Of a stretch of 64,000 nt of DNA, positions 14,201-39,554 are shown piece by piece. How positions within the stretch are numbered: position 1 is the first letter of the stretch; every line of letters begins with the position of its first letter. Origin of the DNA: Malus domestica (lineage: Eukaryota; Streptophyta; Magnoliopsida; Rosales; Rosaceae); assembly GCF_042453785.1 (NCBI RefSeq), contig NC_091667.1:36820001-36884000 (forward strand). Direction: 5' to 3'. The notes under the pieces are model-generated. The model was not told the origin of the DNA and made no database searches. It worked only from the letters and a program-made list of their open reading frames with translations. The position numbers and the translations under genes are program-made.

Positions 14201-17200
14201 GGTTGACACACAGGGACTTTCCAATTATCCAGCAATGGTACTGTTCCTTTACCTTCTCTTCGATTTTGAGAAAGTAGTCATGTTGGGAGTCTGGCTCTCG
14301 AGATTCGGAGGAAGGTGCCTCTTCGATTTTGGAGCAAGCAATCTTGTTGGGACTGTTTTCTCGAATGTGAGTAAAGGTTGGGCATGTTTGCTAGTCTACC
14401 TTGCCACGAAGCACAGAGGTTGACACACAGGGACTTTCCAATTATCCAGCAGTGGTACTGTTCCTTTACCCTTGTGGGTAATAATATGGTAGCTAGACCT
14501 TCAAAATTTATGTGTCTAAACTTTGTTAGTGCTGTTTCTTTGCTATTCTTTTACCTTTCTTGGTCAGAGCGATGTAGTGGGAGCTGCAAGCTTCACGTGC
14601 TCAACTTTGGCAGAGAACTTTGGCAAAGTGATCTGTGGTACCCATGAGTTATTGTTGCGTGTGGGAAGTGGGTGATTGAACAGTAAGATTCATGTGCTTT
14701 CTACTTCACCAGAAGTCTTCGACAGAATGCCCATAATTTCTGCAAAGCTGAGTGTGCGTGTGACAGGTGCTGACAAGGCTAGAAAAGTAGGTGCCTCTTC
14801 GATTTCTGAGATCGGCCCTCGTGGTCTCTGAGCAGCCCAGCTTTTGAGAAAGCGAGCGCCTCTTCGATTGATTCGGAGAACGGTGCCTCACCGATTTTTT
14901 AGAAAGCAATCATGCTGGGGGTCTGGCTCTCGAGATTCGGGGAGCAGTGTCTCTTCGATTTTTGAGAAAGTAATCATGTTGGGAGAATGGCTCTCGAGAT
15001 TCGGAGGGCGGTGCCTCTTCGATTTTGGAGCAAGCAATCTTGTTGGGAGTGTTTTCTCGAATGTGAGTAAAGGTTGGGCATGTTTGCTAGTCTACCTTGC
15101 CACGAAGCACAGAGGTTGACACACAGGGACTTTCCAATTATCCAGCAATGGTACTGTTCCTTTACCCTCTCTTCGATTTTTAAGAAAGTAGTCATGTTGG
15201 GAGTCTGGCTCTTTAGATTCGGAGGACGGTGCCTCTTCGATTTTGGTGCAAGCAATCTTATTGGGAGTGTTTTCTCGAATGTGAGTAAAGGTTGGGCATG
15301 TTTGCTAGTCTACCTTGCCACGAAGCACAGAGGTTGACATACATGGACTTTCCAATTATCCAGCAGTGGTACTGTTCCTTTACCCTTGTGGGTAATAATA
15401 TGGTAGCTAGACCTTCAAAATTTATGGGTCTAAACTTTGTTAGTGCTGTTTCTTTGCTATTCTTTTACCCTTCTTGGTCAGAGCGATGTAGTGGGAGCTG
15501 CAAGCTTCACGTGCTCAACTTTGGCAGAGAACTTTGGCAAAGTTATCTGTGGTACCCATGAGCTATTATTGCGTGTGGGAAGTGGGTGATTGAACAGTAA
15601 GATTCATGTGTTTTCTACTTCCCCAGAAGTCTTTGACAGAATGCCCATAATTTCCGCAAAGCTGAGTGTGCGTGTGACAGGTGCTGACAAGGCTGGAAAA
15701 GTAGGTGCCTCTTCGATTTCTGAGATCGGCCCTCGTGGTCTCTAGGGAGCCCAGCTTTTGAGAAAGCGAGCGCCTCTTCGATTTCTGAGATCGGCCTTCG
15801 TGGTCTTTGAGCAGCCCAACTTTTGAGAAAGCAAACGGCTCTTCGATTTCTGAGATCAACCCTCGTGATCTCTAAGCAGCCCAACTTTTGAGAAAGCAAA
15901 CGCCTCTTCGATTTCTGAGCAGGCGCCTCTTTGATTTCTGAAGCTCCGTCGAGTGCAGATTTTTATAGAGGCTGGCATTAAGTTCCAAAGAACACTTGAA
16001 TCTCCACCAGTAGAAGCTTCATTCTTGCACTTCTAAGATCTTGATTTGTCCGACCTCTTCTCTCTTCAACACCTTTGAAAATGTCTGGCCCCTCCGACCG
16101 TCGTTTTGACTTGAACCTTGTTGAAGAGGCAGCCCCGCCTTCTCCAGACAACATATGGCGCCCATCCTTCGTCTCCCCTACTGGTCCTCTTACCGTTGGG
16201 GATTCCGTGATGAAGAATGATATGACCGCTGCGGTGGTGGCCAGGAACCTTCTCACTCCCAAAGATAACAGACTACTTTCCAAACGGTCTGATGAGTTAG
16301 CTGTTAAGGATTCGCTGGCTCTCAGTGTTCAGTGTGCAGGTTCTGTGTCTAATATGGCCCAACGCCTATTTGCTCGAACCCGCCAAGTTGAATCATTGGC
16401 GGCTGAAGTGATGAGTCTCAAACAGGAGATTAGAGGGCTCAAGCATGAGAATAAACAGTTGCACCGGCTCGCACATGACTATGCTACAAACATGAAGAGG
16501 AAGCTTGACCAGATGAAGGAAACTGATGGTCAGGTTTTACTTGATCATCAGAGATTTGTGGGTTTGTTCCAAAGGCATTTATTGCCTTCGTCTTCTGGGG
16601 CTGTACCGCGTAATGAAGCTCCAAATGATCAACCTCTGATGCCTCCTCCTTCTAGGGTTCTGTCCAGTACTGAGGCTCCAAATGATCCCCCTCCGGTGCC
16701 TTCTCTTTCTGGGGCTCTACCGACTGCTGAGACTTCTCCTAAGCAACCTTTGTGAAGGCTCCCTCTTGTGTGTTTATTTTGACTCATGTATATGTACATA
16801 TTTGTAGCTTATCGGGGATATCAATAAATAAGCTTTCCTTCATTTCAACGTATTGTGTTAAATATCTAGAAGAAGAAAAATATACAAGTTTCCAGGTATC
16901 AAATAAACTGTCTTATGGCCACATTTGGTGCCTAGAAATCAATGTATGTTGGAAGAAGGAATCAATGAAGGTTGAAAGAAGAAATTTTGTCCAAGTGGAG
17001 TTGGACATGGTCCCAACCAATCGCCACAAAATGATAGGATACTTCTTACTAATTCATCTCATTCCTTCAATTTCATTTCTTACTTCAACATGCCTTGAAT
17101 CTAGAGAATTAATTTATATAGTCCAGTCCTAGTGGTCAAGCGTGACTCATGCATATTCATCATTGGCAGGTATATAATCATATAACAACTACATAATGAT

Positions 17201-19731: not shown

Positions 19732-22568
19732 CTATTCCTCCTTCTGACGGGATTTTGATTTTACATCATCAGGGATACACGATGACCAATATAGTGGCAA
19801 CACTGTGAGCAGTGCTTGTATTAGTAGGGCAAGTGGAAACCCTGAAAAGTCATTTCCCGTGACCCCAACATACGATGCAAGCACAACACCCAGATATCCA
19901 CTTACTATGAATGCAACCGCTATTGCAGACATCGCAAACGCCATTAGAGATCCCTCGCATCCTCGTGGGCAGAGTTTGGCTATAAGAATGCTGAAGGGCA
20001 AAATCTTCATAAACAAGAGAACCTCCGAAATGCCAGAAAACACCACGACGTAGAAATTGTCTGGCACCCCCATGTAATTTTGATAAATCCTATTTACAAA
20101 CAACGCATCAGAAATCATAAATATAGCCATTGTAACCTGAATGGCAGAAACTAGTTTCCTAGGTCTGACTGACTTCAAGTGACGATTATAAATGACACTC
20201 CATAGAAGCATTGCCACTTGGCCAAACACCTTTGAGATTCCCAACAGAGATGAGTCAATATTCAAGTACTGTGCCTGGTAAAAGAACATGGTGCCTGTCA
20301 ATGCTGGAATAATGGCATAAGATGCCGCAAACCATGATATTGAGTAAGTGATCTCAGGTTCTCTTAAAGCAACCAAGAGCTCAAAAAGTTTCTCTCGAAT
20401 CCCAACATTGGCTGTTCCTTCGGTATGGTTCAAAGAGCTTTCCTGGACAAAAATGCTTATCAAAAAGTGGACAGTGAGGAGAAGGCCATAGAACAGGAAC
20501 ATCTTTTGGGGAGATAATCTGTCAATGGCAAGACCACCTAGGAGACATCCAAGGACTCCACCCATAGCTGAAGCCATCGAAGAAAATGATTGAAGCTCGC
20601 CTGAGGATGACGGTTGGGAATTTTTTGGGGAAGTAGACTGTTTTCCTGCCTCTGCAACAATGGCATCATTGGCTACCTCAGCAATTGAAGCACCGAGATT
20701 ACTGAGGAGGAGATATAGTGTTATGGTTCCAATTGAGATGCCTGATTCAGAGAGCATTGCTATTGCTAGCCATGACACTGCTTGTAAGACCGCTGAAATA
20801 ACAGATGAGACAAAGAATAAAAGTTAAAAGTAAAAAAAAAAAAGAGGTTAGAAATGGACTTCCGACTAAAGAAAAGAATAATAAGAAGTTAGAAATGAAC
20901 TAGAACTAAAAGTATGTTGGTGGATTTAAAAACCATATTTAGGCCTAGGAAATGGAAACTTTAAATTCACATTTTTTTTTCAAGAGAAACTATTATAAAT
21001 TTATTATGTATCATGTGAACAAAAGCAGTGTATAACAAATTACAGTTGCTTGTAACGAACTAATGACAGATTTTGAAATTTACAAAAATGATATTTTCAA
21101 TGTTTAAACCTACATTTAAACATCTTTGAAACTTTGTCATGTGATGGCACACCGTGTATTAGGAGAAATTACTTACCCAACAACTTCTGTAATCACGATG
21201 AAGGTTCAAATTAGATGGGGAAAGAAGAGATGCAAACTGAATTTAAATAGCTGTGGAGAAGCATCTACAAATCTGCTACTTAAGCTTTTGCTATTTCGCT
21301 CCTCCGGAATCTTAGAGCAAAGCAAGGAAACCAGAGAAAATCAACATTGAGCTTCTGAATTATACAAATTTCCCGCCCATATCATGGCACACCGTGTATT
21401 AGGAGAAATTACTTACCCAACAACTTCTGTAATCACAATGAAGGTGCATCTTTATTCAAATTAGATGGGGAAAGAAGAGATGCAAACTGAATTTAAATAG
21501 CTGTGGAGAAGCATCTACAAATCTGCTACTTAAGCTTTTGCTATTTCGCTCCTCCGGAAACTTAGAGCAAAGCAAGGAAACCAGAGAAAATCAACATTGA
21601 GCTTCTGAATTATACAAATTTTTATCCAACTCCGTGTTGTATTCAGCACTCCTTTGAAGTAGTGGAGGCAAATAGCCCCAAAGAAACTGATTCCTTGGAT
21701 CAAATGATTATTTTAGACTATAACCCGTTTGACAGCCATTTTCGTTTATAGTTTATAGTTTTTATTTTTGTGCTAGAGATAAAGTATATGGGAGAAATGG
21801 TTTAGGGAGGAAAGAGAAAAGTGAAAACAATGTTAATATCAGTTTTTTGTTTTAGTTTTCATTCTGTGTTTCATTTTCTATACACATTCCTTTCAAACTT
21901 GTTCCACCATAATTCCTTTCCTTGGCCCTTTTTCATTACTCCTTCCTCCCGTGTATTGATTTATTGATTGCCTTTAGATGAGATACAAATCTCGAAATTT
22001 AAACTCATCTATCAGCCGCTATCAATGTAACCCTTTTACTCTTATCTATAGTATAGCACAAAGAAAAGAGTGAACACTAAAGAATCCTACGGGTAACAAA
22101 GAACAGTACTCATATGTACCAAAGCCAGTACTAGCCAAAAAGAAAAGCCCAATCCTGTAATAACCAATCCTATTATCCTAACCAAGTTCAAAATTATTGA
22201 CAGCCAGGAGTTCCAAAAGACGAAGCAATTCAGCAAAGATAGGCCAAAAAATACAGAGCAAACGGAAATTAAATGGGCGTAGACGTAGTAGTTACTAGTT
22301 AGGTACCTCCAAGGGCAATATAGGGAATACGGTGCTGGCCAGCAATGTAGACGGCGTCTGAAACGACACCGTAAAGGGGCTTGGCGACCATGGGGAGGTT
22401 GGCGGAGTTCTGCAGGAGCTGGAGAGTGGAGGGGTCCACGTGGAGGCCGTCCTTGAGGAAGAAGTTGACGGCCATCCATGGGAAGCACCTGAAGCCCTGC
22501 ACCCAGTACCCCAACCCCACCAACTTCCGGATCTTGTCCGCGTCACCCTCCGACGATGGCTCTAGCAT
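19732..22568 (-). CDS. FBT7: Folate-biopterin transporter family protein (BT1/FBT, major facilitator superfamily)
   Basis: Two exons, 22307-22568 (262 bp) and 19732-20792 (1061 bp), join in phase 1 to a 440-aa protein. Exon 1 holds the family signature GYWVQGFRCFPWMAVNFFLKDGL and a PSTLQLLQ...ANLPMVAKPLYGVVSD segment. Exon 2 starts ...VLQAVSWLAIA and has LLLSNLGASIAEVANDAIVAE, the hallmark ANDAIVAE motif, then ten or so further hydrophobic segments. The family moves folates or pterins across membranes; some plant members act in the plastid envelope. No obvious transit peptide is present, so location is uncertain. The protein is closest in memory to At1g64890 (FBT7). The start is the ATG at 22568; the longer frame from 22577 begins with GTG. 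The 1514-bp intron contains a 240-bp direct duplication. Confidence 0.93.
21145..21620. repeat. Direct duplication of about 235 bp inside the FBT intron
   Basis: TGGCACACCGTGTATTAGG occurs at 21145 and 21385 (offset 240 bp), and the copies stay nearly identical to the TGAATTATACAAATTT end. The second copy has a roughly 11-bp insertion near 21447 and few substitutions, so the duplication is recent. Confidence 0.9.
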
Positions 22569-22886: not shown

Positions 22887-24241
22887 CAAGGAAGAAAATA
22901 TCGGTAATATCAGAAATATCGGTAGTCCGAAAACATGAAAATATCGATGGAAATATCGGGATAATATCGATATCGATAAAAATTACATGGAAACCACGGA
23001 AATTGTAAGAAAAACTTGGAAATTTTTATTGAAACTTTGCAGGATGTTTATTTAGTCAATTATCTATTAGTTTATCATAAAAAATTGGAAGGAAATGCAT
23101 TGCATGATGGATTTAACATTATCAAGTTGATTATATAGCGAGCTGGCAAACATTGTGAGTGTAGAAAATATGTAGTAATTAATGAAAAAAATTTAAACAC
23201 ACCATAATCATTTATATATAATGAATTAGTACAATATTTTACACTTTATACATTGTACCATTCCTAAAAGATGTAAAAGTTGAATTATTTACCATGCTTT
23301 TCTTTTCTCACACCGTCACACACCACCTACACACACACGCCACCGACACACACACACACGCACACACAGGGATCACACACGCCACCACACACGCACACAC
23401 GACTTGTCTCTAGATCCTTCTCTCTTCTCCCTCTCCCTTCTCCCACAAACACACACAGAGATCGACAGATCTCTCGAATTCTCGATCCTTCTCTCTTCTC
23501 CCTTCTCCCATACACACGCACAGAGACCTTTCTCGATCCTTCTTCCACATGGCATTCTCCTCCTCCCTCGCCTTCCTCCTCGTTCGCGTATTCCGCCTCG
23601 TCAGCGAACCCATGAACTCTGAGTTCTCTTGATCCTTCTCCGCCTTCCTCACCGATCCCACCGATAACAACCCCACCTCTGTCGTTGACTCCAGCGACGA
23701 CCACCACGACCCCCAATCGCCCCCAAACCCCAACCTCAACCTCCACAACAACCACCCATTCTCCTCCTCCCCTCGGAGACTGCCCCGCCGGCGCCGCGCT
23801 CGCCTCCGTCTCTGTTCCACGTCTGCTTCAACCCAAGACCACGCCTGCTTCGCCGTGGGGACAAACCACGAGTTGTGGATCTACAACTGCGAGCTCGATC
23901 CGTTCTGGAGTTGTGGATCTACGCCTGCTTCAACCTAAGAGCTGCGTCAATCCGTTCTGCGAGCTCTTTCGCCGCGACTTCGACAACGGCGGGGGAATCG
24001 GCGTCGTTGAGGCGCAGATCTTGGGTTTGAGCATGGATTGCAGAGAGATCTGGGCAGCTGGGGGGACGACGCAGCCGAGGCTGCCTTTCCGACGACGGAT
24101 CCACGACGACTTTTTCGATAATATCGAAAATATCGCGATATTTTGACGATAATGAGACGGATATGTGGGAAAATATCGGAGCCTCTGAAAAACGATAATA
24201 TCGGCAAAATATCGCCGATATTATCGATATTTAATACCATG
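22887..24241. mobile_element. Non-autonomous hAT-like element, copy 1
   Basis: GGTCCAAC at 22879-22886 is repeated exactly at 24242-24249, an 8-bp target duplication as made by hAT transposases. The termini CAAGG and (reverse) CATGG fit the hAT CA-N-N-G pattern. Both ends carry clusters of ATATCG/CGATAT words, a palindromic subterminal repeat. The interior has a CA-rich microsatellite block (23325-23400) and a C/T-rich stretch with overlapping frames but no transposase. It shares its ends and the 22980-23260 interior with the copy at 44079-45240. Confidence 0.85.
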
Positions 24242-24910: not shown

Positions 24911-25469
24911 GGGTTCAACTTCAAGTGGGAAATTTGGGTCTTTCTTAATACCAAAATGATGAGTTTGATTTATCTGAAAAACTCTTTGTGATACAAACTT
25001 TTTTTATAATGAATTTACAAATAGAGATTTAAAAGAATAAATATATTATCAACATTTTTATCGAAAAAGGTGTAAAAATACGACAATCGGTAAGTTTAGT
25101 AGCACTTTTTTCTTTTTTGAGAAACCTCAATCTTACTAGAGATATTTTATTGATAATGGAAAAAATATTACACTTATTCGTAGACAGACTTTATCCTTCA
25201 TAACACAAAGACAATAAAAAGCAACACTCATTATTATAACTTGATAAAGATTTTACCAATTGGATTCTTGGGGGATACATTCTTGGGGTTTTGGGACCGC
25301 TTCAGACTGTATCACATTCACTGGTGTTATTACAAACAGGTAAACCCATATCTTATATATTTCCGTAAGAGGCAGGAGATTAACAATCATTTTGGAATTT
25401 GGAGGATAGTGGATTTCTGCATCTCATAAGAAACGGAAATAAACACGAGTAAGTGAGAGAAAACAAAAT
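24911..25469. other. Intergenic, nothing recognised
   Basis: AT-rich sequence between the MITE cluster and the Tat element. No ORF above background and no repeat ends were found. Confidence 0.4.
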
Positions 25470-25474
25470 ATGTG

Positions 25475-26380
25475 TGTTGACCCTAAAAACTACAAAGCCT
25501 ACGTGGCGCGCAGGCCGAGTAATTAATGAGCTAACTACGTCCTTCGGTGAATGCGGGGCGTGCCAACTCGTCGGCCGAGCTCGGCCGAGGAGTAAATTTG
25601 TTGATGTTGCGTTGAGTCACGCTATTGACTTCTGCGTCTTGCAATTGCGGCCGAGAAAGGAACACGTCTCGGCCTCTTGGGCTCTCGAACCTGAAGACAA
25701 GGTTACTATTCTTACGAAGTTCAATATCAAATTCGGCTTTCAATGTGCCGAATGTAATAACTGTAACACCTCACTTCGCCGAGAAGGCTGATGAGATGAC
25801 CTCGACCAAGACTTGGATAGGTAATCAACCGTTCTCGCCGCAGTGCTGTTGATGCCAACGGAAGATACTGCAAGACCGATCGATTCTACGGTGACAGAGC
25901 TATCTATGCCGACTTAAGATATCACCGGTTGCTTCCACAGTGCTGTTGATGCCAACGGAAGATGTGTCAGCGAAAAAGGAAAAAGAAAAATCACAAGTTG
26001 TGAGAGTTTGCGCAGGGCAATTTTGTATTGATTTTGCAGGGGCTTGAATGATGTGCAACCTCTTCTATTTATAGCAATGGCTCCCCCCAAGGTCGAGTTA
26101 AAAACCTACTCGGACTAGGTTTTCTTTCCTTGATCAGCATCAACTCGACCAGTCCTACCTTCACTAGGACTGTGAACCTAGTCCTTTACCTGAGCCGGAT
26201 TCGCTTCCGGGTCCTGCCGAGACTCCTTATTGCACTAGGATTCGACCTCTTGTGTTATGACCTAGCCGACCTAGGTTTGGAGGCCCACGTACTGAACGAT
26301 CCGTGGTATTCTTGTCGCAAGGCCTCCCGGGCCGAGAATGACCCTACACTCGGCCCAAACTGTTATTTTGGGCCCAAACA
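25475..26380 (-). repeat. 3' LTR of the Tat element
   Basis: 906 bp, TG...CA ends. The minus strand carries a CTATAAATAG TATA box (plus-strand 26065-26074), matching 38611-38620 in the other LTR. Relative to the 5' LTR it has a 10-bp duplication near 25575 and lacks about 30 bp near 25808. Confidence 0.95.
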
Positions 26381-26396
26381 TTGCCCCCTCGCTTCT
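26381..26396 (-). other. Polypurine tract of the Tat element
   Basis: The minus strand reads AGAAGCGAGGGGGCAA directly before the 3' LTR. This is the position and composition of the plus-strand primer of LTR retrotransposons. Confidence 0.7.
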
Positions 26397-26850
26397 GAGG
26401 TCCTCGGCCTGACTTCTTTGGTCGAGTTTCGGCCTTGAAGAAGCGAATCTGCCACTCAGAACCCTAATGCCTGAGTTCCAAGGCGCATTTATTGAACATG
26501 ATTGCACGATCTTGATCCTGTTAACCGAACCCGCCACGTGGTGTCCTCTAACACGACCAATCCCAATAATGACGTCCAAGGCGTGCGGCTGCCTGAACCG
26601 TCGACATTATGACCACTATCTCAATCCGCGAGCCACTTTCTCAGTTCGTGAGCCCACTTGTCATCGTGCAGGCGTCGAAACGTCTTCCGCCATTAATTTC
26701 GCCATCACACGCAATCGTGCGCCCCCAACATCTGAAACCTTCAGTCTTCTCAACTGCATTTCCCAAATGTTCATCATGATTAACGATTCTTTCGGTCGAT
26801 TTTGCCCCTTTGTTTTGAATTTCAAACGATTACCCTTCCTGCCAAAAGCC

Positions 26851-26858
26851 TATAAATA
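26851..26858 (+). promoter_or_regulatory. TATA box of the antisense PMD gene
   Basis: TATAAATA lies 152 bp upstream of the PMD ATG, in a CCTATAAATACTG context, followed by a C/T-rich leader. It faces opposite to the LTR promoters, suggesting that the antisense gene has its own transcription unit. Confidence 0.6.
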
Positions 26859-27002
26859 CTGAAAATCTCTCATTCGCACTTTACGCTCCCAAAACTTTCT
26901 GAAAAACTCTCGCTCTTATTCTCCAGCACCTTTCTTTTTCAAATCTTCGTCTTCAAATCTCCCTACCCAGAAAACCCTTTTACACCGTGCTTCCTTCTTA
27001 CA

Positions 27003-28562
27003 ATGGCGTCCTTCATCTCCAAGCTTTCCAAGGAATGTGACCAGCATCAGAAGATTCTTGATCGGAGCTCGATCAAGACTATACGGTTTGAAAGTGACAT
27101 GAGCACCGTCCACCAAATCTTGGGCCCTCTATTCAAAGCAACCGTACCATCAACTATCACCGAACTTCTCCAGGAACACTGCTTGTCACCCTTGTTCCAA
27201 GGGTTTGAATGGTCAAGATGGGAGGCAGCGAAACCCCAAGGCTCCTGGCCTTCGACCACTACAACCTGGGCAGCCTGGGTCGTTCGAATGGAGAAGCTCT
27301 TCGGCGAGCAATGGAAAGTCCTCGGCATTTACGACGTCATCCTTCTTTCGTCTATGGACATCGTTCTCGACAAGGAGCTTCTCCTAGCCGCCTTATGCTT
27401 CTGGTGTTCGGCCACCAACACCATGGTTCTCCCCCTTGGTCCTATCGGCCCCACCATTCTTGATGTCACTGCCATCTTGGGGACTTCAGCAACTGGAATC
27501 CCCATCGATGCTGCCCTTTCCGGATATCGGTCGAATCTCGACCTGAAGACGCTATTCGACCGACGAGCTTTTGAGACGTTGAGCCGTGAGGGTCATATCC
27601 CCTCAAAAGAAGACGTTCAGAAACTCCACAAGAACTTCTTCAACTACAACACCCTCTATCTCCATTTCGTTGGCCGAGGAGAAGAGGCCCTGCGGGAAGG
27701 GGAACATGAAGCTTTCCTTTTCTACTGGTACAACAAGTACATTTGTTGTACCAAATCGAACAAATGCCTGGTCGAGAATATGCCAGTGGCCGAGGCCCTG
27801 GCTAGCGGTCATGTCCTGGTACTTGGCCCCAACATCTTGGCCCATCTCTTCCGTTGCCTGGCTGAGACGACCCTGCACAAAATTGACCCATACCAGAATG
27901 GACCTCTCTGGGTCTTCCAACTCTGGCTCCAAGTGTATTTCGCCTCCCTTCGGCCAGCAATCGTCGATTTCTCACCCACAGAGGCGCTTGGACCTCAGCT
28001 GGCCTCTCGACCAATACCCCCTCACCGAGCCGAAGAAATATTTAAATTCTTTTTCGCCCTCGACGATCTCTCCAACGATGAGTTCCTGATATGTCGTCGT
28101 CGGGCATATCCTTCCTCGGTCATGCTACCTATATCGGCGTGGAGCGCAGATGAAGACGCCGACCTTCGTCAGTCCTGGGGGTCATTCGTGCTTGCTTGCG
28201 ACCTCCCCCTCGGCTGCGATGGAAAACGAGCGGGTTGGGAAGTGTATCATCCCAACTTCCTTGCTCGGCAGCTTGGCTACCTCCAAGGTTGCCCAGTCCC
28301 CCTTCTCTCCTCTCGGTCCGTCCTAAGTCGCGGACGCGAACCTGGCTCCTCAGAGAAGGAGTGCGCCGACGCCAAGAAGGAGTTCCAGGAACGGTGCCAA
28401 AAATTTCGCCTTTGACCGGCCACTCCAGAAACCCTTTGCACCGACACCTTCGGTGATTGGTGGGACAGTTATACCCAACGGTTTTTTGGGGTCTCGGTCG
28501 ATACCATTGTGGACACACTTTTTGGTGGTCGACCTAAAAAGTCTTCTGCCCCCCAACCCCAA
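27003..28562 (+). pseudogene. Plant mobile domain (PMD, aminotransferase-like) ORF, antisense within the Tat element
   Basis: An ATG in good context (ACAATGGCG) opens a 470-codon frame ending at TGA 28413-28415. The same frame then continues for 49 more codons (with DTFGDWWDSYTQRFFGV) to a GTAGTT donor-like site at 28563. The stop sits where CGA would fit, so a C-to-T change is likely. The PMD core is visible: a WKVLGIYDVILLSS block (about residues 110-125), the LAALCFWCSATNTMVLPLGP block with a downstream PTILDVTAILG motif (about 140-175), and a long helical C-terminal half. PMD proteins (MAIN/MAIL1 in Arabidopsis) are host silencing and genome-stability factors; retrotransposon-carried PMDs are known in plants. 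The likely role here is element-related and unproven. The ORF lies opposite to gag-pol. Confidence 0.8.
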
Positions 28563-28642
28563 GTAGTTGCTTTATTTCTCCTTTTTTTTTTCTTCAACCT
28601 TGCATATTGATTTGCCTCACTGAATTGTTTTTATCCTTTTAG

Positions 28643-30393
28643 GTAGTCGGCCTTTGAGAAAAACGGAGGCTGTTGCCGCGGCCACGGTCGAGAAAAAATC
28701 AGCCGTGGTTAAAAGGGATAAAGCTGCTGGTCGGGCCGTGCTGACCAAACGACCTCGCCCAGAGGCCGATCCGGTCATCGGGAACCTCCGCCGCCTGCCA
28801 AGCGGGTAAAACAGCTGGCAAAGAAGGGCGCACGGGAGATCCACGTAATCTCCAGTCAAACTACAGGGGCGACGACTCCCAGTGTTTCCCCTCCTCCTGC
28901 CGTTGTTCAACCCTCAGTCGAAAAACAGCCCGCCCCGGCCGCAGCGACAGTTCGAACGCGGCCTATCTCTGGAACTGGTACACCAGTTGTGCCTCCCTCC
29001 ATCGAGGAAGCATTCGCTCCAAAAAAAGGTGGTTTCTACGACCGAGGGAACAACCCTTGAGAATCCAAAACCCCCGGTCTTCATTCTGGAAGAGAGTGAG
29101 GGGAGCGACGAGGTCCTGCTGGCAGACCGTCCTCACTCTCGTCGGCAACCTCTCCCAAGGTCCGAGATGGTGGTTCAAGCCGGCCCCTCCACGGCTGATC
29201 GTGGCAAGCGCCCGGTCGAGGAACCGACGGCGGTAGCCGAACCCCTCACTCCTTCTCAGGACCAGGATGTCCCTGCCTCCTCCGAAACGGCTGTTCCAGT
29301 CGGCCCATCTGCAGCCGACCGGGGCAAACGCCCGCTCGAGGAACCCGAGGCAACGGCGGACTCGCCCGTTCATCCTCAAGACCAGGGCTTCCATATTCCT
29401 CCACAAGAGGTTACCTCGCCCTTCGTAAGTACCTTCGACCATCTTTCCTTGATTGTTTTTTTTTGCTTTAGAATTCTAAACGAGGAAAATAATAAATGTC
29501 AGGTGCCTGTACATTCTTTTCACCGACAATTCTATGCGCCGAAGGGCGTTATCTATATTTCTTGGCCGCCTCAGTGGCCATCAAACGTAGATAACCTCCA
29601 TCGACCGCGTGAACTGAGAAGCAACCTAAGACACTGGGCTCGGCCATTGAGTTCTTTAGGTTCGAACAACGACCCTGGAGACATGGCCGAGGTCTCCTCT
29701 CGGCAGGTTAAAAAAACGAAACCTTCTTGCTATTCTTGTCGTGACTTCCTTTAAGCCTAAACTGATTTGTACGCGCAGGCTTCGTGGGAGGTCGAATTCA
29801 AAGCCCTCCTCTCCAGCACAACTGCCGAGTCCGGCCCTTCGGCTGCTCCGACTGAGGCTGCCGATCCAACCGCTCTAACCCAGCTGCGAGAAGTTCTGTC
29901 GCTTTCAGCGCCGCAAGTACTCGAGCGCAACGATCTTGATATGCTTGGCGTGTGTCTGAACGATCTTGGGGCTGACGGTCGCCTGAGCGGAAATGCCATC
30001 ATTTAGGCATCGTCTGCCTTGGAGCAGGTTCGGGAGACATTTAATGTCTTCCAGACCGCTCTAAAGGCCGAACAGGACTTGCAAGCTGCCACGGCCGTTC
30101 AAGACACTCTCCGTCCGAAAATCGACGCTCTAAGGGCAAAAGGAGAAATATTAGCCGAGCTCGATCGTCAGATGGCCGAGTTGGCAAAACGTCGGTCGAC
30201 CGTCGCGTCCGAGCTTGCTAAAGACTTCGAGTCGGGCGGAAAGGATCGCCTGACTGAGTACGCGGCGACAACAAAGCGGGTTGAGCGGTTGAAGCTGGAC
30301 AAGAAGAATCGACAAGCTGAAGTTATCATGGCCGAGGTGCGGTGGTTGGAATTAAAGGCCCTTCTTAGCACCCTCCTACCTTCTTCCCCTTGA
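28643..30393 (+). pseudogene. Downstream exons of the antisense PMD gene (disordered and coiled-coil part)
   Basis: After a short intron (28563-28642, ending TTTTAG) coding-like sequence resumes. First comes a Lys/Ala-rich basic segment. Then an acidic/Pro-rich region contains two imperfect repeats built on GPS-TADRGKRPVEEP (near 29190-29230 and 29305-29350), ending at a GTAAGT donor-like site near 29426. After another intron come the segments 29779-30003 and 30007-30393, which encode a long coiled coil (LEQVRETFNVFQTALKAEQ onward). At least one frameshift (near 28800) and one in-frame TAG (30004-30006) break it. It ends 72 bp short of the integrase stop on the other strand, so the two genes are tail to tail. 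Exon edges are approximate. Confidence 0.6.
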
Positions 30394-30465
30394 ATGTACT
30401 TAGTTTTGACCTGACTGACTTACTTAGCTTGTACATGCTCATCAATCTTAATGAAATAATTTTGT

Positions 30466-31798
30466 TTATTCCCGCATTTCCCATGTGACCGGATAGTATT
30501 TCTTTAAAAACTTCCCATTGATCGATAATCTGTGCACTACACCGGTTCGGTCTTTAAGATGATACGCCCATTTTCCGTATACTTTATGCACAATGAACGG
30601 CCCTTCCCAATTCGGCGACCACTTGCCGAACCTAGGATCTTTTAGCCCTACGGGCAACACCGTTTACCACACTAATTCATCCTCGCCGAATGTTTTCTGT
30701 CGCACCTTTTGATTATAGGCCCGCTCGGCAATCTGTTTTTGTGCCACCAACAAGTTGTAAGCGTCAAGCCGCGCTTCTTCCAAATCTTCTAGTTCCTGTC
30801 TCATGGACTGATTATATTCGGCGCTAAACAAACTACTTTGTTCAATTAATCGAAACGAATTTATGCTCAACTCGACTGGTAACATTGCATCGTGTCCGTA
30901 GGTTAATGCGTATGGGGTTGTCGCGGTCGCCGACCGGGGCGTCGTTCGGTATGCCCATAATGCCTCGTTCAACTTCAAATGCCACATGCCAGGCCTTTCT
31001 TTTATTATTTTTTTGAGGATGCCGATCAACACTTTATTACTTGCCTCGGCCTGCCCATTCGCCTGTGGATAATACGGTGTGGACTGTTCCAGCCGAATTT
31101 TCAAATTTGCCGTGTATTCTTTAAACCTTTCGGCTGTGAAGATTGTTCCATTGTCGGTTATGATCGTTTCTGGTACACCGAACCGGGTCACAATGTGTTC
31201 CTCCACGAAGTCGCAAACCTCTTTAGATGTTAACTCGGCATATGATTTTGCTTCGACCCATTTAGTAAAGTAATCAGTTGCGACTATTATCCATGCATGC
31301 TTAGCAGCTCCAGAAGTCGGCGTGATTTTGCCGATTACGTCCATGGCCCATCCTCTAAACGGCCATGGCTTAATGACCGAATGTAGTGACTCGGCCGGGA
31401 CCCTTTGTATAGGCCCATGGATTTGGCACTGTATGCATCCTCGTGCAAACTCGATAATCTTTCAGTATTCTCGGCCAAAAATAGCCGTGTCGTCGGAGTA
31501 GCCATCGCATTTTCCGTCCGGATTGATGAGCTCCGCATACCCCTTCATGAACCTCTGCGATCGCCCGAGCATTCTCTTGGGGGCCGAGGCATAGTAATAA
31601 CAAACCATCTTCACCCTTTCGGTATAACTCGTTCTGGTACGTGACATAGTTCGTGGCGTGAACCCGTGTCCTACGACTATGTTTCCCGTTAGGATTGTCA
31701 AGGTACTGCATAATGGGTGTTCTCCAATCATCCGGTATCACCTCAGTCGTGCAAATCTCGACAGAGTCCTGCCGATCTACCAACGAAGGTAAGGACAT
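30466..31798 (-). pseudogene. Tat element integrase
   Basis: Read from 31798 leftward: an HHCC-type zinc region (HEGVCGAHQSGRKM... and HGYFWPR), broken by frameshift near 31440. The catalytic core follows with AMDVIGKI (first Asp), TDNGTIF (second Asp) and the NGQAEASNKV stretch holding the Glu. A C-terminal DNA-binding part has LVW and VLPVGLKDPRFGKWSP...WEGPF. A TAA replaces the codon after Trp near 30661-30663. All three catalytic acidic residues are present, but the frame breaks make it inactive. Confidence 0.9.
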
Positions 31799-31923
31799 AA
31801 CCTGGTGCGTATCACGTCGTCCCGTCGGAGGATTTGCTGGTTAACCAAGGCTGGGTATAACTGCCGTATCACTGGTATCTCTTGGCCTAGTTTGCCCCCC
31901 AGGAGTTGTGCGCCGGAGGCAAT

Positions 31924-32577
31924 TTAAGCCAATTCATCCGCGTCGGTATTATGACACCGGGAAATATGTTGAAATGTAATACCGTCGAAGGATTCGGCCA
32001 AATAGCTGGCAACCATATGGTAAGGTGCCAGGGTACAACTCATGCACCGAAAGGAACCATTAAGTTGGTTAATCACAAGCTCGGAGTCACCGAGGACGAG
32101 GGCGCGGGTTGCCCGCAGGTCATGGAGAATTCCAAGGCCGATGATTAGGGCTTCATATTCGGCCTGATTGTTGGTGCAGTCGAAGTCCAACTTAAGCGAA
32201 AAGAACCAACGATCGTGATTCGGGGATTGAATGACAATTCCCACGCCCGCCGACGACGACGTACTAGAGCCGTTAAAATACATCGTCCAGTGGTTGTCGC
32301 GCGTCTGAACCATGCCGATGTCAACGTCGTTGCCCCCAAAACCATATGGGGAGGGATGTTGAGCAAGGAAGTCAGCCAATGCTTGGCCCTTGACAGCTTT
32401 CTGAGCTACATATTGCAAGCTAAACTCGGACAGTGCCATGGTCCATTTCCCAATGCGGCCTTTTACGATCGGTCGAGTGAGCATGTAGCGGATGACGTCG
32501 GTCTGCGCAATAACCTGGGTAACCGATGGGAGCATATAATGCCGAAGCTTGGAGGCGGCGAAAAAACAGCTAGGCAC
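31924..32577 (-). pseudogene. Tat element second (archaeal-like) RNase H domain
   Basis: This frame holds the end of the first RNase H connection region (GKWTMALSEFSLQYVAQKAV) and then a separate RNase H: MYFNGSS, NNQAEYEALIIGLG, LGDSELVINQLNG and a terminal DADELA. A second RNase H after the RT-linked one is the feature that marks Tat-lineage elements. The first catalytic Asp (usually FDGSS or similar) is Asn here, while the other acidic positions are kept. Confidence 0.85.
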
Positions 32578-34035
32578 AGCTTCTCGACAGCTGGATAATT
32601 GATCTCTGGTTGACTGAGATTACGGCTGAGATAAAAAATAGCCTGTTCCCGTCCGGCGTCGTTATCTTGTGCGAGGAGGCAGCCGATGGACTCTTCGGCC
32701 GCCGAGATATAGAGCTTAAGAGGCTTACCGCGCCGGGGAGGAACCAAGACAAGTGGGTTCGTGAGGGAGACTTTGATTTGCGTAAACGCCGCCTGATGCT
32801 CGTCGTTCCACACAAATTTATCTGAGTCCTTGAGTTTTAAGAGTGGAAAACGCTTTCATTTTTCCTGCAAAGTTGGCAATAAATCGGCGGAGGAAATTGA
32901 TCTGTCCGAGTAAAGACTGGAGTTGTTTCTTCGTCGTTGGGGGTGGGGCAGTGATGATTGCACGTGCCTTATTCTCATCGACTTCAATCCCACGATGATG
33001 TACGAGGAAACCAAGAAAATTCCCGACCGATACACCGAAGGCACACTTGGCAGGATTCATCTTGAGATTGTGCTGACGCATGCGGAGGAAAGCCTGTTGG
33101 AGATCGTCCAGAGGTGTCTGTCGGCGTTTAGATTTGACGACAACATCGTCGATGTAAACTTCGACGATGGTGCCAATTAAATCATGGAAGATGGTGTTCA
33201 TCGCCCGTTGGTACGTGGCGCCGGCATTCTTGAGGCCAAATGGCATGACAACCCATTCGTAAGTGCCGAGTGCCCCTGGGCAACGGAAAGCAGTTTTGTG
33301 CACATCGGCTTCGGCAATAAATATTTGGTTGTACCCGGCATGTCCATCCATAAAGGATAAGATCGCATGATTCGCCGCGGCGTCGATTAACAGATCTGAA
33401 ATCGGCATTGTATACTCATCTTTGGGAGTTGCCAGATTCAGATTTCGAAAATCGGTGCAAATGCGAAGTGCACCATTTTTCTTTAATACAGGAACGATAT
33501 TTGCCAACCATTCGACATATCGAGCTGTCCGAATGAATCCGGCTTTCAAAAGCCGAACTAGTTCGTCCTTGACACTGAGTTGTACTTCGGTCGAGAATCG
33601 ACGAGGTGGTTGACGGAAGGGTTTAAATCCGGGCTTAATACGTAATTCATGCTCGACCAGAGTACGATCTAAGCCGGGCATTTCATGATAACTCCAAGCA
33701 AAACAATCTTTGAATTCCGTAAGCAAGGTACGAAACTCGTCTTTCATTCGTTGGGGAAGTAAAGCACTAATAAACAAAAGCCGTGGGTCATCGGCCGTCC
33801 CAACATTAATCTCTTCTAAAGGGTCCTTGACTAGGGGCCGACGATTTTCGAGCTCGGCCGGGGCGGCTCGAATTTTATCAAAAGATAATACAGGCCCATT
33901 ATCTCCCTCAGCAAGGACCTCGACGAGGTTGACGCCCGAATTGGGTTGCTTAGATATCGTATACCAATGGGCCAGCAGTTGTTCCATAGTAGATGAAACC
34001 GCGGCCCTGCGTGTTTCCCGATCGGTGTCAAACAT
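32463..34035 (-). pseudogene. Tat element reverse transcriptase with linked RNase H
   Basis: The RT domain spans about 33600-32830: entry motif KPFRQPPRRFS, the LKKNGALRICTDFRNLN block, FMDGHAGYNQI, MPFGLKNAGATYQR and the catalytic VEVYIDDVVVKS, followed by LGFLVHHRGIEV. A frameshift near 32820 leads into the RNase H piece (AAFTQIKVSL... and IFYLSRNLSQPEINYPAVEK), itself shifted again near 32570. The YIDD box is intact. It is ordinary Ty3/gypsy polymerase apart from the breaks. Confidence 0.93.
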
Positions 34036-36037
34036 CGGCTTCGGGGAGGAAGTTGGCTAATCCGAGTCTCGCCGAATCCTGCTGGACAGTCTCGGCGCCA
34101 ACCTTGATAGCTTTCTGAACGGAAATCCGAGTCGGCTGTCCCTCTTCATTGAAGCCTTGCAAAGTAATGTAGCCGACGTGATCGTCATAATACCGTGCTT
34201 GGATCATGTTAGTTTCGAAGGGCTGGCTATCGGCCGGATGAACAGTGACCGATTTGTCGTCCCAAAAGACAAGCACTTGGTACAATGAGGAAGGAATACA
34301 ACTGGTTTGATGAATCCAATCTCGGCCGAGCAGTGCATTATACTCGGTTTTGGAATCAACCACGAAAAAGGCGGTCATGTGGGTGCGACCGGCAATATTT
34401 ACAGTTAACGGAAGTACACCTTTGGTGTGGGATTTGTCACCGACAAAACTACTCATTGTGATTCCTGACGGAATCAGTTCGTCATTTGAACGGCGTAAGG
34501 CCTTCATGATGTTCAGAGGCATGATATTGACGGTAGCTCCACAGTCGACAAAAACTTTAGAAACTAGATATCCCTCAATGTGGGCCGTCACATACAGTGG
34601 CTTTAAATGGTGAAGCTTGGCCAACGATGAACGAGGGAACAATTCGGCCAAAGCGGCCTTTAGACTATCATCTTTTGCTGTTGACTCGCCTTCAGCAATC
34701 GATACAAAATCAACATGGCCGGGTTCCTCGGCAACCACATCTCCATCAAGGAAATTTGGTTGAGCCGTGCTTGATTGAAAATCGGCAGGTAACACATGGA
34801 CCATACTGATTTCCATATTATCCAGGACTGACGGGCCCATCTGGTCAAGACCCTCCTCGTTCGGTTGGTCGGCGACTACGGACTCAGTTGTCGTCAAAGT
34901 CGGACAACGAGATTCTTCTGTCCCTTCTTCAATGTCGTCACTCGGCGGAGCTGCTTCGGCCACTTGTTAGTTCTGCATGACCGCCTCAGGTAAGGTTGAG
35001 ATTGACAATGAAATTGGGGTTAGGACCTGAACCCGCTCCTGGTAGTGTAGCCGAGCATCCCTAGTGTCGAGATACGCATCCAGACGGGCAATACGTGTGA
35101 TTTCATCGGTCGTAAGGCCGAAGAGAGAAACCGTCGAAAATACTTCAAAGTGATATCGTAAATACTGAAGGTCCTCCAGCGAGAAAGGAAGGTCAGCTAC
35201 ATCGATATCGGTGTACGGGTCGACTTCAAATCCAAAGACACGAGCTTCTCGTATGTGCTGGAACCTTGCTTTCAATCCTGGATCTGAGGTCTTCTGGATA
35301 ATCCGCTCAGCATCTGGACAAGTCAGGACAAGATCATTGGTGTCCTGGCATGCCTTCGGCAAACCATACAGATCGTTGGCCGAATGTTTCTTATGAAATT
35401 CTCGCATATATTCCAAAGACTCCACAAGGAACGGGGGATGCAAATTCCGTCGAATTTTGACCAAAGGTTCTTGTATAGCCGGCGAGGATAATTTGCTTTC
35501 GGCCTCTTGCCTGAAATGTTCAAGGCGTGCCTTCATCTCCCCTGGTCGAATGAGAAGTTTGATCCGTTTATCAGCTTCTTCAAACGTGGTCTCGACATCT
35601 TGATCGACCAGCCGTTTCCCCTGAACCAACTCTGTCATAATTGCTGGAGGTGGTCGCTCATCATCAGTGGCAGCTGTGTCCTTCGGCCGCCACTTAGGGG
35701 CCGAAGTTTCTTGGGCTGCTCGTCGGCGAGCCATGCAATCTATCCGTTGATGCCGGCGTTTCTGAGATTTGGACAACGCGGTGTAGACGCCCTTCGAAGA
35801 ATGATATGTGTACCAACGTTGATCTCTAGGCTCGGGAGGCTTGAAGGTCTTTTGGCTCCGCGATGATTCTGAACTGCTAGAATTACGCTTATGGTAATCA
35901 TCGTCATAGAATGAAGCATCAAAATCGAGGCGCCGCCTGACCGGGGGTGTCTCTTCCATCCGTACTTTAGGACCGAGCCTCTCAAAAACCCCGTGATGTT
36001 GGCCTTCATTGGCTACCTTTTGCCAAGTTGCGGCCAC
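34028..36037 (-). pseudogene. Tat element gag-pol linker and aspartic protease
   Basis: One frame runs from 36037 to 34028 with an in-frame TAA at 34967-34969. The first part (about 355 aa) is charged and resembles the linker seen in large Tat elements. The second part contains the retropepsin: HIEGYLVSKVFVDCGATVNI (active-site DCGA in place of DTGA/DSGA) and NALLGRDWIHQ. A frameshift near 34030 separates it from RT. Confidence 0.85.
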
Positions 36038-36199
36038 AGGTTACGAAGAGGGCTTCTCCTCTGGTTCACTGTCGACCTTCGCTTTACATTTCCTGCACAA
36101 AACCGCCGTCCCACTGTCTTCATCGGTGCTATAATCCATCATAGGTTTGACAATAGCTGGCCTCGTTAAAGCCGTAGGTGGTTTGTTTGAACGAAAATC

Positions 36200-37959
36200 G
36201 GCCATGAACCGTGGCCGAAAATTCTGATTCCGCGGGCGTTACGTCTCAACCACTTCGGCCTTGCCTTTCCCTTTGTCCTTGGGTAGGTACGCGTCGACCA
36301 TATTTACTGTTGCCGTGGGGAACGGATCAGTATCAACACTCATCCTCTTCTCGGGAAACTTCAGTTTGCCATTATCAATCCAGCTTTGGACGTTATCGCG
36401 AAATACAACGCAATTGTTTGTCGTATGTTTGCTCGAATTGTGGTATTTGCAATACACCTTTCCTTTAAGCTCTTCGGCCTTAGGAATGTTATGACCAGGC
36501 CGAAGCTTGATAACAGTTGGTCAAAAATTGCGTCAGCCTTGGTAATATCAAAAGTATAAACCTTTGACGATTTCAATGTTCCTTCAGTGGCCGAGCGACT
36601 TTTGGCTTCTCTAGAATCAACATGAGTCAATGCCTTGCAAACGTATGGCTTATCTATCACTATCTCAGCCGCATCCACACTAACGCATTCATCCTCGGTT
36701 GACGCATAATTGACAGTAGGGTTCTTGTAAATCGTTCCCCGAGTTGGAGTTTTCGAAGTCTTTTCCTCGCGGAGCAAATAATCATACTGCTCGACATGTT
36801 GGGCTAATTCGTACATATCCCGAAAGTTTGCCCCCAAGAATTTCTTTTTGTATTCAACGTCGAGGCCGTTCAAAGCAAGCCTGACAAATTCAACCTCGGG
36901 TAAAGGCACTCGGCACCAATTCCTAGCTGATTTGAACCTGGTAAGATAATCCATTGGTGACTCGTCACATGCTTGAGCCATCCGTGCTAATGAAGAGACT
37001 GACATCTCCATCCCCGGCCGATAAAACTGCTCGTGGAATTTCTCGACCAACTCCTCCCAGTTTTGGACGGAATTAGGAGGAAGATTGATGTACCAGGCAA
37101 ATGCCGAGCCGATCAATGAAAAGTTGAACAGCCGTAACTTATGGAAATCACTATTTACATCTCCGCATTGCGCGGTGAAACGAGCCACGTGTTCCAACGA
37201 AGACAGGGACGATTCACCGGCAAAAAGACTAAAATCTGGGATCTTGAAACCCTTCGGGTATCCAAACGTTTCCACGTAAGCTGGGTACGGATGAATAAAC
37301 TTGGGAAACTTCGGCCCTTTCTTCATGGCCGAGTCGATCATCCGCTGAACTTCGGTCATATCAACAGGTGTTGCTTCGATCCTCTGGTCGGTTCCGTCTG
37401 ACCTACTATTCGACCCTCCTCCTTTTTCCAAGTTAATTGGTTTGAGCGGAGCAGGAATAGGCTCGGCCGGTACAATCGGTACCGGGTTATTTCCTGGTGG
37501 ACAATGTTGAAGAAGATCGAAAGGCCTGCTGCCACCAACTTTACTAACCAGCATTTAGAGCAGCCTGGTTTGTCGATCATTGGAACTGAGTATCGCGTCA
37601 TGCAGCTTGTCAATGCCTCGACTGAACGTCTGCTCGACTGACCGAGACTGCTCGTCTAGTCGCTTTCGGAGAAACGACCTCGTTGGTGGGTCAGATCCTT
37701 CACCACCATCCTCGTCACACTCCTCTACTATCCCTTCATTGAGAACGCATGTGTTTCTGTTAGGGATTTCTAAACCACGGAGTTGACCGCCGAGATTAAC
37801 TTCTCTCTCTCGGCGAGTCGCGCTCGTGGACTCAGGTGTCACAGCGCTAAGGGGATTCTGCGCCTGCGGCACACTTTGTCCCAGGCTTTGATTCGGCAAA
37901 TCGGCTGTCGACTTTCCCATAGTTGTTTTCTTTTTTACCGATCGTGTTTCAATTGGCAT
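36200..37959 (-). pseudogene. Tat element gag
   Basis: Two co-linear frames (37959-37555 and 37554-36361) are separated only by a TAA at 37555-37557. They encode a Ser/Arg-rich N-terminus and the Ty3/gypsy gag core (KLRLFNFSLIGSAFAWYINL, WEELVEKFHEQFY, MDYLTRFKSARNWC). A frameshift near 36500 leads to a Cys/His region (CKYHNSSKHTTNNC) and, further on, a CRKCKAK motif near 36090. The capsid core is well preserved. Confidence 0.9.
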
Positions 37960-37981
37960 GAACTTCGTAGTTTAGCACTGG

Positions 37982-37999
37982 GTCCCACTGGGCGTGCCA
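37982..37999 (-). other. Primer-binding site of the Tat element
   Basis: The minus strand reads TTTTGGCACGCCCAGTGGGAC immediately after the 5' LTR. TGG at this spot is the normal start of a tRNA-complementary primer site. I could not assign the tRNA with certainty. Confidence 0.6.
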
Positions 38000-38002
38000 A
38001 AA

Positions 38003-38926
38003 TGTTGACCCTAAAAACTACAAAGCCTACGTGGCGCGCAGGCCGAGTAATTAATGAGCTAACTACGTCCTTCGGTGAATGCGGGGCGTGCCAACTCGTC
38101 GGCCGAGGAGTAAATTTGTTGATGTTGCGTTGAGTCGCGCTACTGATTTCTGCGTCTTGCGATTGCGGCCGAGAAAGGAACACGTCTCGGCCTCTTGGGC
38201 TCTCGAACCTGAAGACAAGGTTACTATTCTTACGAAGTTCAATATCAAATTCGGCTTTCAATGTGCCGAATGTAATAACTGTAACACCTCACTTCGCCGA
38301 GAAGGCTGATGAGATGACCTCGACCAATAAGGGTTTCTGAACCCTTCTCGACCGAGACTTGGATAGGTAATCAACCGTTCTCGCCGCAGTGCTGTTGATG
38401 CCAACGGAAGATACTGCAAGACCGATCGATTCTACGGTGACAGAGCTATCTATGCCGACTTAAGATATCACCAGTTGCTTCCACAGTGCTGTTGATGCCA
38501 ACGGAAGATGTGTCAGCGAAAAAGGAAAAAGAAAAATCACAAGTTGTGAGAGTTTGCGCAGGGCAATTTTGTATTGATTTTGCAGGGGCTTGAATGATGT
38601 GCAACCTCTTCTATTTATAGCAATGGCTCCCCCCAAGGTCGAGTTAAAAACCTACTCGGACTAGGTTTTCTTTCCTTGATCAGCATCAACTCGACCAGTC
38701 CTACCTTCACTAGGACTGTGAACCTAGTCCTTTACCTGAGCCGGATTCGCTTCCGGGTCCTGCCGAGACTCCTTATTGCACTAGGATTCGTCCTCTTGCG
38801 TTATGACCTAGCCGACCTAGGTTTGGAGGCCCACGTACTGAACGATCCGTGGTATTCTTGTCGCAAGGCCTCCCGAGCCGAGAATGACCCTACACTCGGC
38901 CCAAACTGTGATTTTGGGCCCAAACA
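38003..38926 (-). repeat. 5' LTR of the Tat element
   Basis: 924 bp, TG...CA ends, same TATA box on the minus strand (plus-strand 38611-38620). Differs from the 3' LTR by a small number of substitutions, mostly C/T or A/G, and two indels. Confidence 0.95.
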
Positions 38927-38931
38927 ATGTG

Positions 38932-39554
38932 ATAATCATTTTTCACATTTATAACTTTTTTCATCGAAGACGAATCAACAAACAATAGGTAAAGTGTTCC
39001 TTTGTGGGTCTTAAACAGACAAGTGACCCTTAAAAGAACCACTGAAGTTCCTTTTCTAAAAGATTTACCAAGTAACCTATCATTAAGTTTCATGACATAT
39101 AGTGTACAAACTTTTATCTACAAATTTAAGCTCCCTAACATTACTCTATCAATAATGTGAAAGAAGAAACGAAAAGGGTGCAAAACTTTGAGACTGCCTA
39201 AAGAATTATTCCATAAAGCACCCAAGGGAAAGCAAGGAAGAAAAAACCGCAGTGTATTCGACATCTTTGTCCATTGATTCTACTTTGATTTATCCAAACC
39301 GAATGTCTTTCTCTTTTCCTTTGTTTTCCATATGAGCCAAACTAAAATAATTAAGGCAACTAGATGAGTTACTAATCTCCTTCCAAGTCAGTCCACTCTT
39401 ATTGTACATCATCATTGTTCCTAAATATGAGAGTGGAGGAGGCAGAACATAACAGAACATATAAATAAATTCTCATTTTTATCAACTTGTCTGAAAAGGG
39501 AATGCATAACAAAACCACAAGTATTCTGCAAACAGGCAACATTAAGCACATCTG
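38932..39554. other. Spacer downstream of uS5m
   Basis: AT-rich sequence between the Tat element and the uS5m stop codon. It presumably includes the uS5m 3' UTR. No other feature was seen. Confidence 0.4.

Follow-up and report, generated by a model that had tools for sequence, protein, structure and literature searches.

A predicted four-exon antisense gene encoding a plant mobile domain protein in a Tat-type retrotransposon of apple

We analyzed a 64,000-nt window of the apple (Malus domestica) genome (NCBI RefSeq assembly GCF_042453785.1, contig NC_091667.1, positions 36,820,001 to 36,884,000; coordinates below are those of the window), in which a long terminal repeat (LTR) retrotransposon spans 25475-38926 on the minus strand, flanked at both ends by the target duplication ATGTG. 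On the plus strand, between the 3' LTR and integrase and opposite gag-pol, lies a gene for a protein with a plant mobile domain (PMD), where a preliminary description made from the letters of the sequence had placed it. We are confident that this antisense gene is real, has four exons, and is under selection, because of its profile match, the dual RNase H of its host element, its conserved splice sites, its indel pattern, and ratios of nonsynonymous to synonymous substitution (dN/dS) with frame and integrase controls (Table 1).

The PMD frame runs from 26856 to 28415 (520 codons, with a single stop at its end), as had been described, and the profile check suggested at that time gave a strong match to PF10536 (E 2.6e-34; 119.4 bits versus a curated cut-off of 34.9). 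The predicted start codon, however, is the ATG at 27003, present in 27 of 30 loci, and thus 49 of the 520 codons lie upstream of the start. The TATA box, TATAAATA, is where it had been reported, and its motif is kept in nearly all copies; the claim that the gene has its own promoter stands to the extent of this conserved box, and we call the promoter putative. The gene and integrase end tail to tail, also as described, with the stop codon at 30391-30393 and the end of the integrase frame at 30466 lying 72 bp apart.

We mapped the codons of 30 genomic loci exon by exon onto the deposited apple protein P0084, and set exon borders from the joins of deposited models and from GT/AG dinucleotides conserved among the copies. 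Among the splice-like junctions noted earlier, 28562/28643 proved exact and the other falls at a donor at 29425-29426; the multi-exon architecture is upheld, with four exons, including a conserved exon 3 that had gone unlisted. Of seven full-length deposited models, six begin the third exon at the base matching 29575 and one skips it, and the first 24 codons of exon 3 as we define it are missing from all seven. We placed this exon at 29503-29706 because the upstream AG is kept in all 30 loci and the 24 additional in-frame codons appear constrained (pooled dN/dS 0.32; stops in 2 of 30 loci); the acceptor used by the deposited models, 72 nt downstream of that at 29502, is AG in 28 of 30. Since exon 3 is in phase 0 at both ends, it could be skipped without a frameshift. 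The predicted full product is ~1,049 residues long. Its linker holds repeated GPS.ADRGKRP.EEP-like blocks, in keeping with the repeat-rich linker reported previously, and exon 2 encodes a basic block (KRVKxLAKKGxREIHV), conserved in aligned apple and pear models, that reads as similar to a nuclear localization signal (NLS). Leaving aside its final 8 residues, the C-terminal 120-residue stretch contains a single proline; the long coiled coil proposed for this region was not shown, as its heptad power was not significant in a crude test (251 of 2000 shuffles were as high).

Codon substitution patterns argue for selection on the protein. The 30 loci, drawn from 42 listed matches, include the window copy and are biased toward close, complete copies; scoring in the genome searches was confined to the top candidates (40 of 985 and 117 of 1,706), and copy pairs are not independent of each other. 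Across 435 pairs (Nei-Gojobori), dN/dS of means was 0.42, 0.27, 0.20, and 0.17 for dS of 0-0.1, 0.1-0.25, 0.25-0.4, and above (30, 78, 119, and 208 pairs); the neutral ratio that the preliminary description had raised as grounds for doubt was not seen. From lowest to highest dS bin, the ratio changed from 0.34 to 0.12 in exon 1, 0.66 to 0.23 in exon 2, and 0.46 to 0.15 in exon 4; over three bins it went from 0.61 to 0.07 in the deposited part of exon 3. A local-identity filter removed 412 of 30,681 codons, and the trend was kept without it (0.45 to 0.18, with dN<dS in all 435 pairs). The ratio falls as dS grows, as expected if multiplying lineages are under constraint and copies decay once inserted. 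Integrase, our yardstick from the same copies, gave 0.29 to 0.08 (406 pairs, 29 loci), and wrong frames gave 1.1 to 1.9, one reverse frame excepted.

Indels point the same way as the substitutions: runs per pair per kb numbered 0.25, 1.03, 1.5, and 0.65 in exons 1 to 4 versus 18, 4.6, and 13.7 in introns 1 to 3 and 12.4 in the upstream region (these counts use deposited borders, and the intron 2 value includes 72 nt of exon 3). About half of the indels in exon 1 and most of those in exon 2 have lengths not divisible by 3, the pattern expected from decay. Individual copies are indeed damaged. The window copy carries more than the one stop reported for it: besides the stop at 28413-28415, there is another at 30004-30006, exon 2 is frame-broken, and the first donor is altered. 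Exons 1 to 4 are clean in 5, 12, 28, and 14 of the 30 loci, respectively. Unbroken models do exist among the deposited proteins, seven in all (P0082-P0088), with 110 sequences listed as members of their clusters.

Several observations count against this picture of a selected four-exon gene. None of the 30 loci is free of stops and shifts across all four exons. The excepted reverse frame, which shares third positions with the gene, also has a low dN/dS (0.26), although exon 1 read in its three reverse frames shows on average 10.8-18.9 stops per copy. The splice-site argument by itself is modest, as the commonest base already has a mean share of 0.88-0.95 in the columns of the introns. Annotation is not uniform, because other deposited family models differ in their joins: P0009 has a different entry point into exon 4, and other parts are skipped or joined in P0063, P0064, P0070-P0072, and P0089. 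Finally, the gene is known here from DNA and deposited models, and its transcription and splicing are predicted.

Table 1. Features of the retrotransposon and its antisense PMD gene, in window coordinates
Feature	Position	Strand	Evidence or remark
3' LTR, TG..CA	25475..26380	-	906 bp; aligned to 38003-38926
Polypurine-tract-like stretch adjoining 3' LTR (putative)	26381..26400	-	Read from letters
TATA box TATAAATA of antisense gene	26851..26858	+	TATAWAW at -151 to -174 of start codon in 29/30 loci
Exon 1: ATG and PMD	27003..28562	+	PF10536; dN/dS; ATG conservation; stop 28413-28415 in this copy
Intron 1, GT..AG	28563..28642	+	Donor GT 30/30 loci, AAGGT context 28/30; acceptor AG 30/30
Exon 2: linker, basic block, ADRGKRP-like repeats	28643..29424	+	dN/dS; frame-broken in this copy
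Intron 2, GTAAGT..CAG	29425..29502	+	Donor GT 28/30; upstream acceptor AG 30/30
Exon 3, 68 codons	29503..29706	+	Upstream AG 30/30; extension dN/dS 0.32; phase 0 at both ends
Inverted repeat in exon 3, 28-nt arms, 8-nt loop	29540..29603	+	Fold; no Rfam match there
Intron 3	29707..29778	+	GT 30/30, AG 28/30 loci
Exon 4: charged C-terminal region, ending at TGA stop	29779..30393	+	dN/dS; stop 30004-30006 in this copy
Integrase: H2C2, rve, C-terminus	30466..31840	-	PF00665 E 1.9e-13; H2C2 below cut-off; C-terminus by reading
Second, archaeal-type RNase H	31924..32619	-	RVT_3 E 3.8e-16
Polymerase RNase H	32463..32855	-	RT_RNaseH_2 E 2.9e-20
Reverse transcriptase	32818..34056	-	RVT_1 E 5.1e-24
Protease region	34028..34966	-	gag-asp_proteas E 4.5e-05, below cut-off
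Gag-like frame	34967..36040	-	By position; no Pfam match above cut-off
Primer binding site (putative)	37982..37999	-	Read from letters
5' LTR	38003..38926	-	924 bp; aligned to 3' LTR

As for the host element, its LTR pair differs by 9 substitutions (7 transitions, 2 transversions) over 896 aligned columns, with gaps of 10 and 28 (Kimura two-parameter distance, 0.0101). At a substitution rate of ~1.3e-8 per site and year, this distance implies an insertion age of roughly 0.4 million years. The coding order is gag-like frame, protease, reverse transcriptase, RNase H, RVT_3, and integrase, the last split over two frames in this copy and carrying a stop. Angiosperm Tat elements (Ogre or Retand) are marked by a second, archaeal-type RNase H located between the first one and integrase (PMC6317226). 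By its domain order, the element is of this Tat type, because RVT_3 sits between RT_RNaseH_2 and integrase. The PMD extra open reading frame (ORF), a frequent trait of Ogre elements but not a defining one, is present. We also considered a narrower assignment to Retand, which was not adopted: a Pfam profile search of the window pieces and full-length P0084 found no Transposase_28 (PF04195).

The antisense arrangement recurs in related copies. Integrase lies on the strand opposite the PMD gene in 29 of 30 loci, the exception (L032) having a shortened match, and likewise in all three of the extra family copies L039, L043, and L044, which served only in this and identity comparisons and in the exon 3 hairpin test. 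Pear proteins P0004 and P0013 retain the NLS-like block along with the PMD and linker, and their sequences close with VS.. after ..SSAF/SSAY, which is what read-through of a GT donor would produce. In a more distant Tat-like family of this genome (L041, 2422-5247 and 3-1151; 42% identity in integrase), an antisense PMD frame of 941 aa continues without a break into a long charged C-terminus and ends ~1.3 kb from integrase; thus, the architecture seems to exist both with and without introns. In Rosa, PMD identity is ~37-39% (P0098 and P0100), and the C-terminal motif of P0098 looks similar by eye. Another locus, L040 (1628-5070), which may be a host gene or an element, has a PMD frame of 583 aa with charged frames lying separately behind it; no match to the element's integrase was found in the 5.5 kb examined there.

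HBZ of human T-cell leukemia virus type 1 (HTLV-1) is spliced. Like the apple gene, it is an antisense gene of a retroelement (named in PMC11963269), and no homology is claimed. In plants, PMD is the commonest atypical domain in one screen of LTR elements (PMC9289625), is reported in 57% of Ogre elements (PMC6317226), and has clades, PMD-A, that are solely Gypsy-encoded (PMC5418596). These PMD-carrying Ogre/Gypsy elements resemble ours as Ty3/gypsy elements with a PMD extra ORF, but the passages of those accounts that we draw on contain no multi-exon antisense gene or selection test. Antisense ORFs are documented in Retand, with Transposase_28 in 97% of clusters (PMC11963269) or, in another survey, in 23% of Retand elements (PMC6317226); they differ in that Transposase_28 is absent here, and the portions covered do not name PMD as one of their domains. 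The Retand survey is ORF-based, and its covered parts do not describe introns (PMC11963269); ORF-only surveys cut spliced genes at introns and may miss parts of them. Maize Grande gene23 is likewise an antisense accessory gene transcribed from its own promoter and yielding a nuclear protein, but it is reported to lack clear similarity to other proteins, and introns go unmentioned in the part of that account covered here (PMC7264820).

Our literature search, which covered titles and listings and few subscription journals or preprints, found no spliced antisense PMD gene in a retrotransposon. For element ORFs of this kind, later papers cite a 2011 survey in Genetica. The gene type is known in outline; we regard two things as solid additions, the selection test and the exon structure, including the stretch of exon 3 that had been missed.

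That a large, antisense, intron-bearing PMD gene is under purifying selection suggests that its protein pays its way. We lean, if only slightly, toward an explanation in which a Tat-type LTR retrotransposon carries it as an accessory gene whose product may act as an anti-silencing factor. Placed opposite gag-pol behind its own TATA box, the gene would have three introns removable solely from antisense mRNA and not from genomic RNA, so that they would survive retrotransposition. Once transcribed and spliced, the mRNA would encode the PMD, a basic NLS-like linker with repeats, a small exon whose skipping would keep the frame, and a charged tail at the C-terminus. Selection has retained the gene in copy-making lineages, and copies, that in the window included, decayed afterwards. 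The protein may enter the nucleus and act on the element's own chromatin, as VANC proteins do for VANDAL transposons. This anti-silencing action is possible but somewhat short of probable. The idea that element-borne PMDs counter or mimic host control, also raised in the preliminary description, is still unproven; the new support for it here is one structural match to VANC21, which a weaker model did not repeat.

The protein may instead aid the element's cycle, for example by helping it enter the nucleus, handle RNA, or choose targets, and have no part in silencing, an alternative we consider rather unlikely: the NLS-like block and the nuclear product of gene23 (PMC7264820) are consistent with it, but the present results do not separate it from a chromatin role. 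Alternatively, through its PMD and not through binding of element DNA, the protein may mimic or poison the host complex of MAIN, MAIL1, and PP7L. Host PMD proteins function in silencing transposable elements (TEs), and MAIN and MAIL1 bind PP7L (PMC7156037); moreover, counter-silencing has been proposed for PMDs borne by Mutator-like elements (PMC5418596) and by TEs generally (PMC8616336). We nevertheless think such mimicry unlikely, given that the element PMD is only 24-27% identical, where it matches, to the host-like PMD loci L001-L003.

Nor need a protein be what matters: antisense transcription or the exon 3 hairpin might regulate the element as RNA, and tea PMD genes do give rise to phased small interfering RNAs (PMC10673657). 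Exon 3 is the least variable exon (0.054 versus 0.117-0.140), its low third-position variation (0.094 versus 0.20-0.22 elsewhere) hints at constraint beyond the protein, and its stretch folds with z -5.1 on the plus strand (-3.3 on the minus strand). However, among 44 window/strand folds along the gene, plus-strand 29948-30178 rivals it (z -5.2); in 33 copies, hairpin pairs formed in 98.2% of cells but shuffled columns did equally well, and no pair was altered on both sides. We therefore rejected the hairpin as a structured RNA; as dN/dS and the rarity of exon indels indicate constraint at the protein level, an RNA role is quite improbable. A second inverted repeat lies within exon 3 at 29639-29691. 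Least credible of all is a captured host gene fragment, functionless and decaying: the broken copy in the window and the lack of any fully clean locus would fit, but dN falls below dS in every pair, the ratio is lower with divergence and well below 1 for deep pairs, and seven deposited models are unbroken.

The anti-silencing reading could be taken further, such that Tat PMD proteins and VANDAL VANC proteins share one fold and one job, sequence-specific anti-silencing, with the Tat version encoded by a spliced antisense gene and MAIN/MAIL1 being domesticated relatives. We find this doubtful, and treat the VANC link as a bold lead and not as a solid addition. VANC proteins are likewise borne by TEs and combine a conserved domain with a variable region of tandem peptides, and one PMD model gave a possible fold match to VANC21; they differ in residing on DNA transposons and in having DUF1985 and DUF287, whereas the apple protein has PMD only and no sequence link was found. 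Several results speak against the likeness. The matching model has modest scores (predicted local distance difference test [pLDDT] 58.5, predicted template modeling score [pTM] 0.55), and a second, weaker model (pLDDT 45) did not list VANC21. Foldseek alone gave no match at E<=0.001, no PMD profile reached VANC21 at the sequence level, and hhalign of PMD against apple DUF1985 gave a probability of 0.1-0.5%, a null qualified by the failure of the apple DUF1985 profile itself to reach VANC21. At thresholds up to E 10, 46 PMD proteins matched 13 families, none of them PF09331 (DUF1985), and the literature on PMD with VANC or DUF1985, within the same limited coverage, draws no structural link. In this copy of the element, no VANC-like motif arrays were found: the sole tandem array scoring ≥40 comprises 2.3 copies of 20 bp at 26613, and CTCGGCC, found 12 times among 3,618 noncoding versus 11 among 8,505 coding heptamers, is not significantly enriched because it was the top pick among all heptamers. 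We accordingly discarded both as target motifs. If the likeness holds, retrotransposons and DNA transposons would share one class of anti-silencing protein, and an element versus host origin of PMDs would be testable by structure and DNA binding.

An Rfam scan of 25400-39000 up to E 1 returned only speF (25731-25858, E 0.65), far below its cut-off and taken as chance. Outside the element, a sequence of ~0.3 kb occurs twice (22949-23255 and 44129-44436, 21.2 kb apart), once on either side of the retrotransposon, and nested direct repeats with spacings of ~64 and ~217 bp lie beside it at 13945-15919. A 363-aa frame on the minus strand (19732-20823) reads as similar to membrane transporters and is perhaps a host gene.
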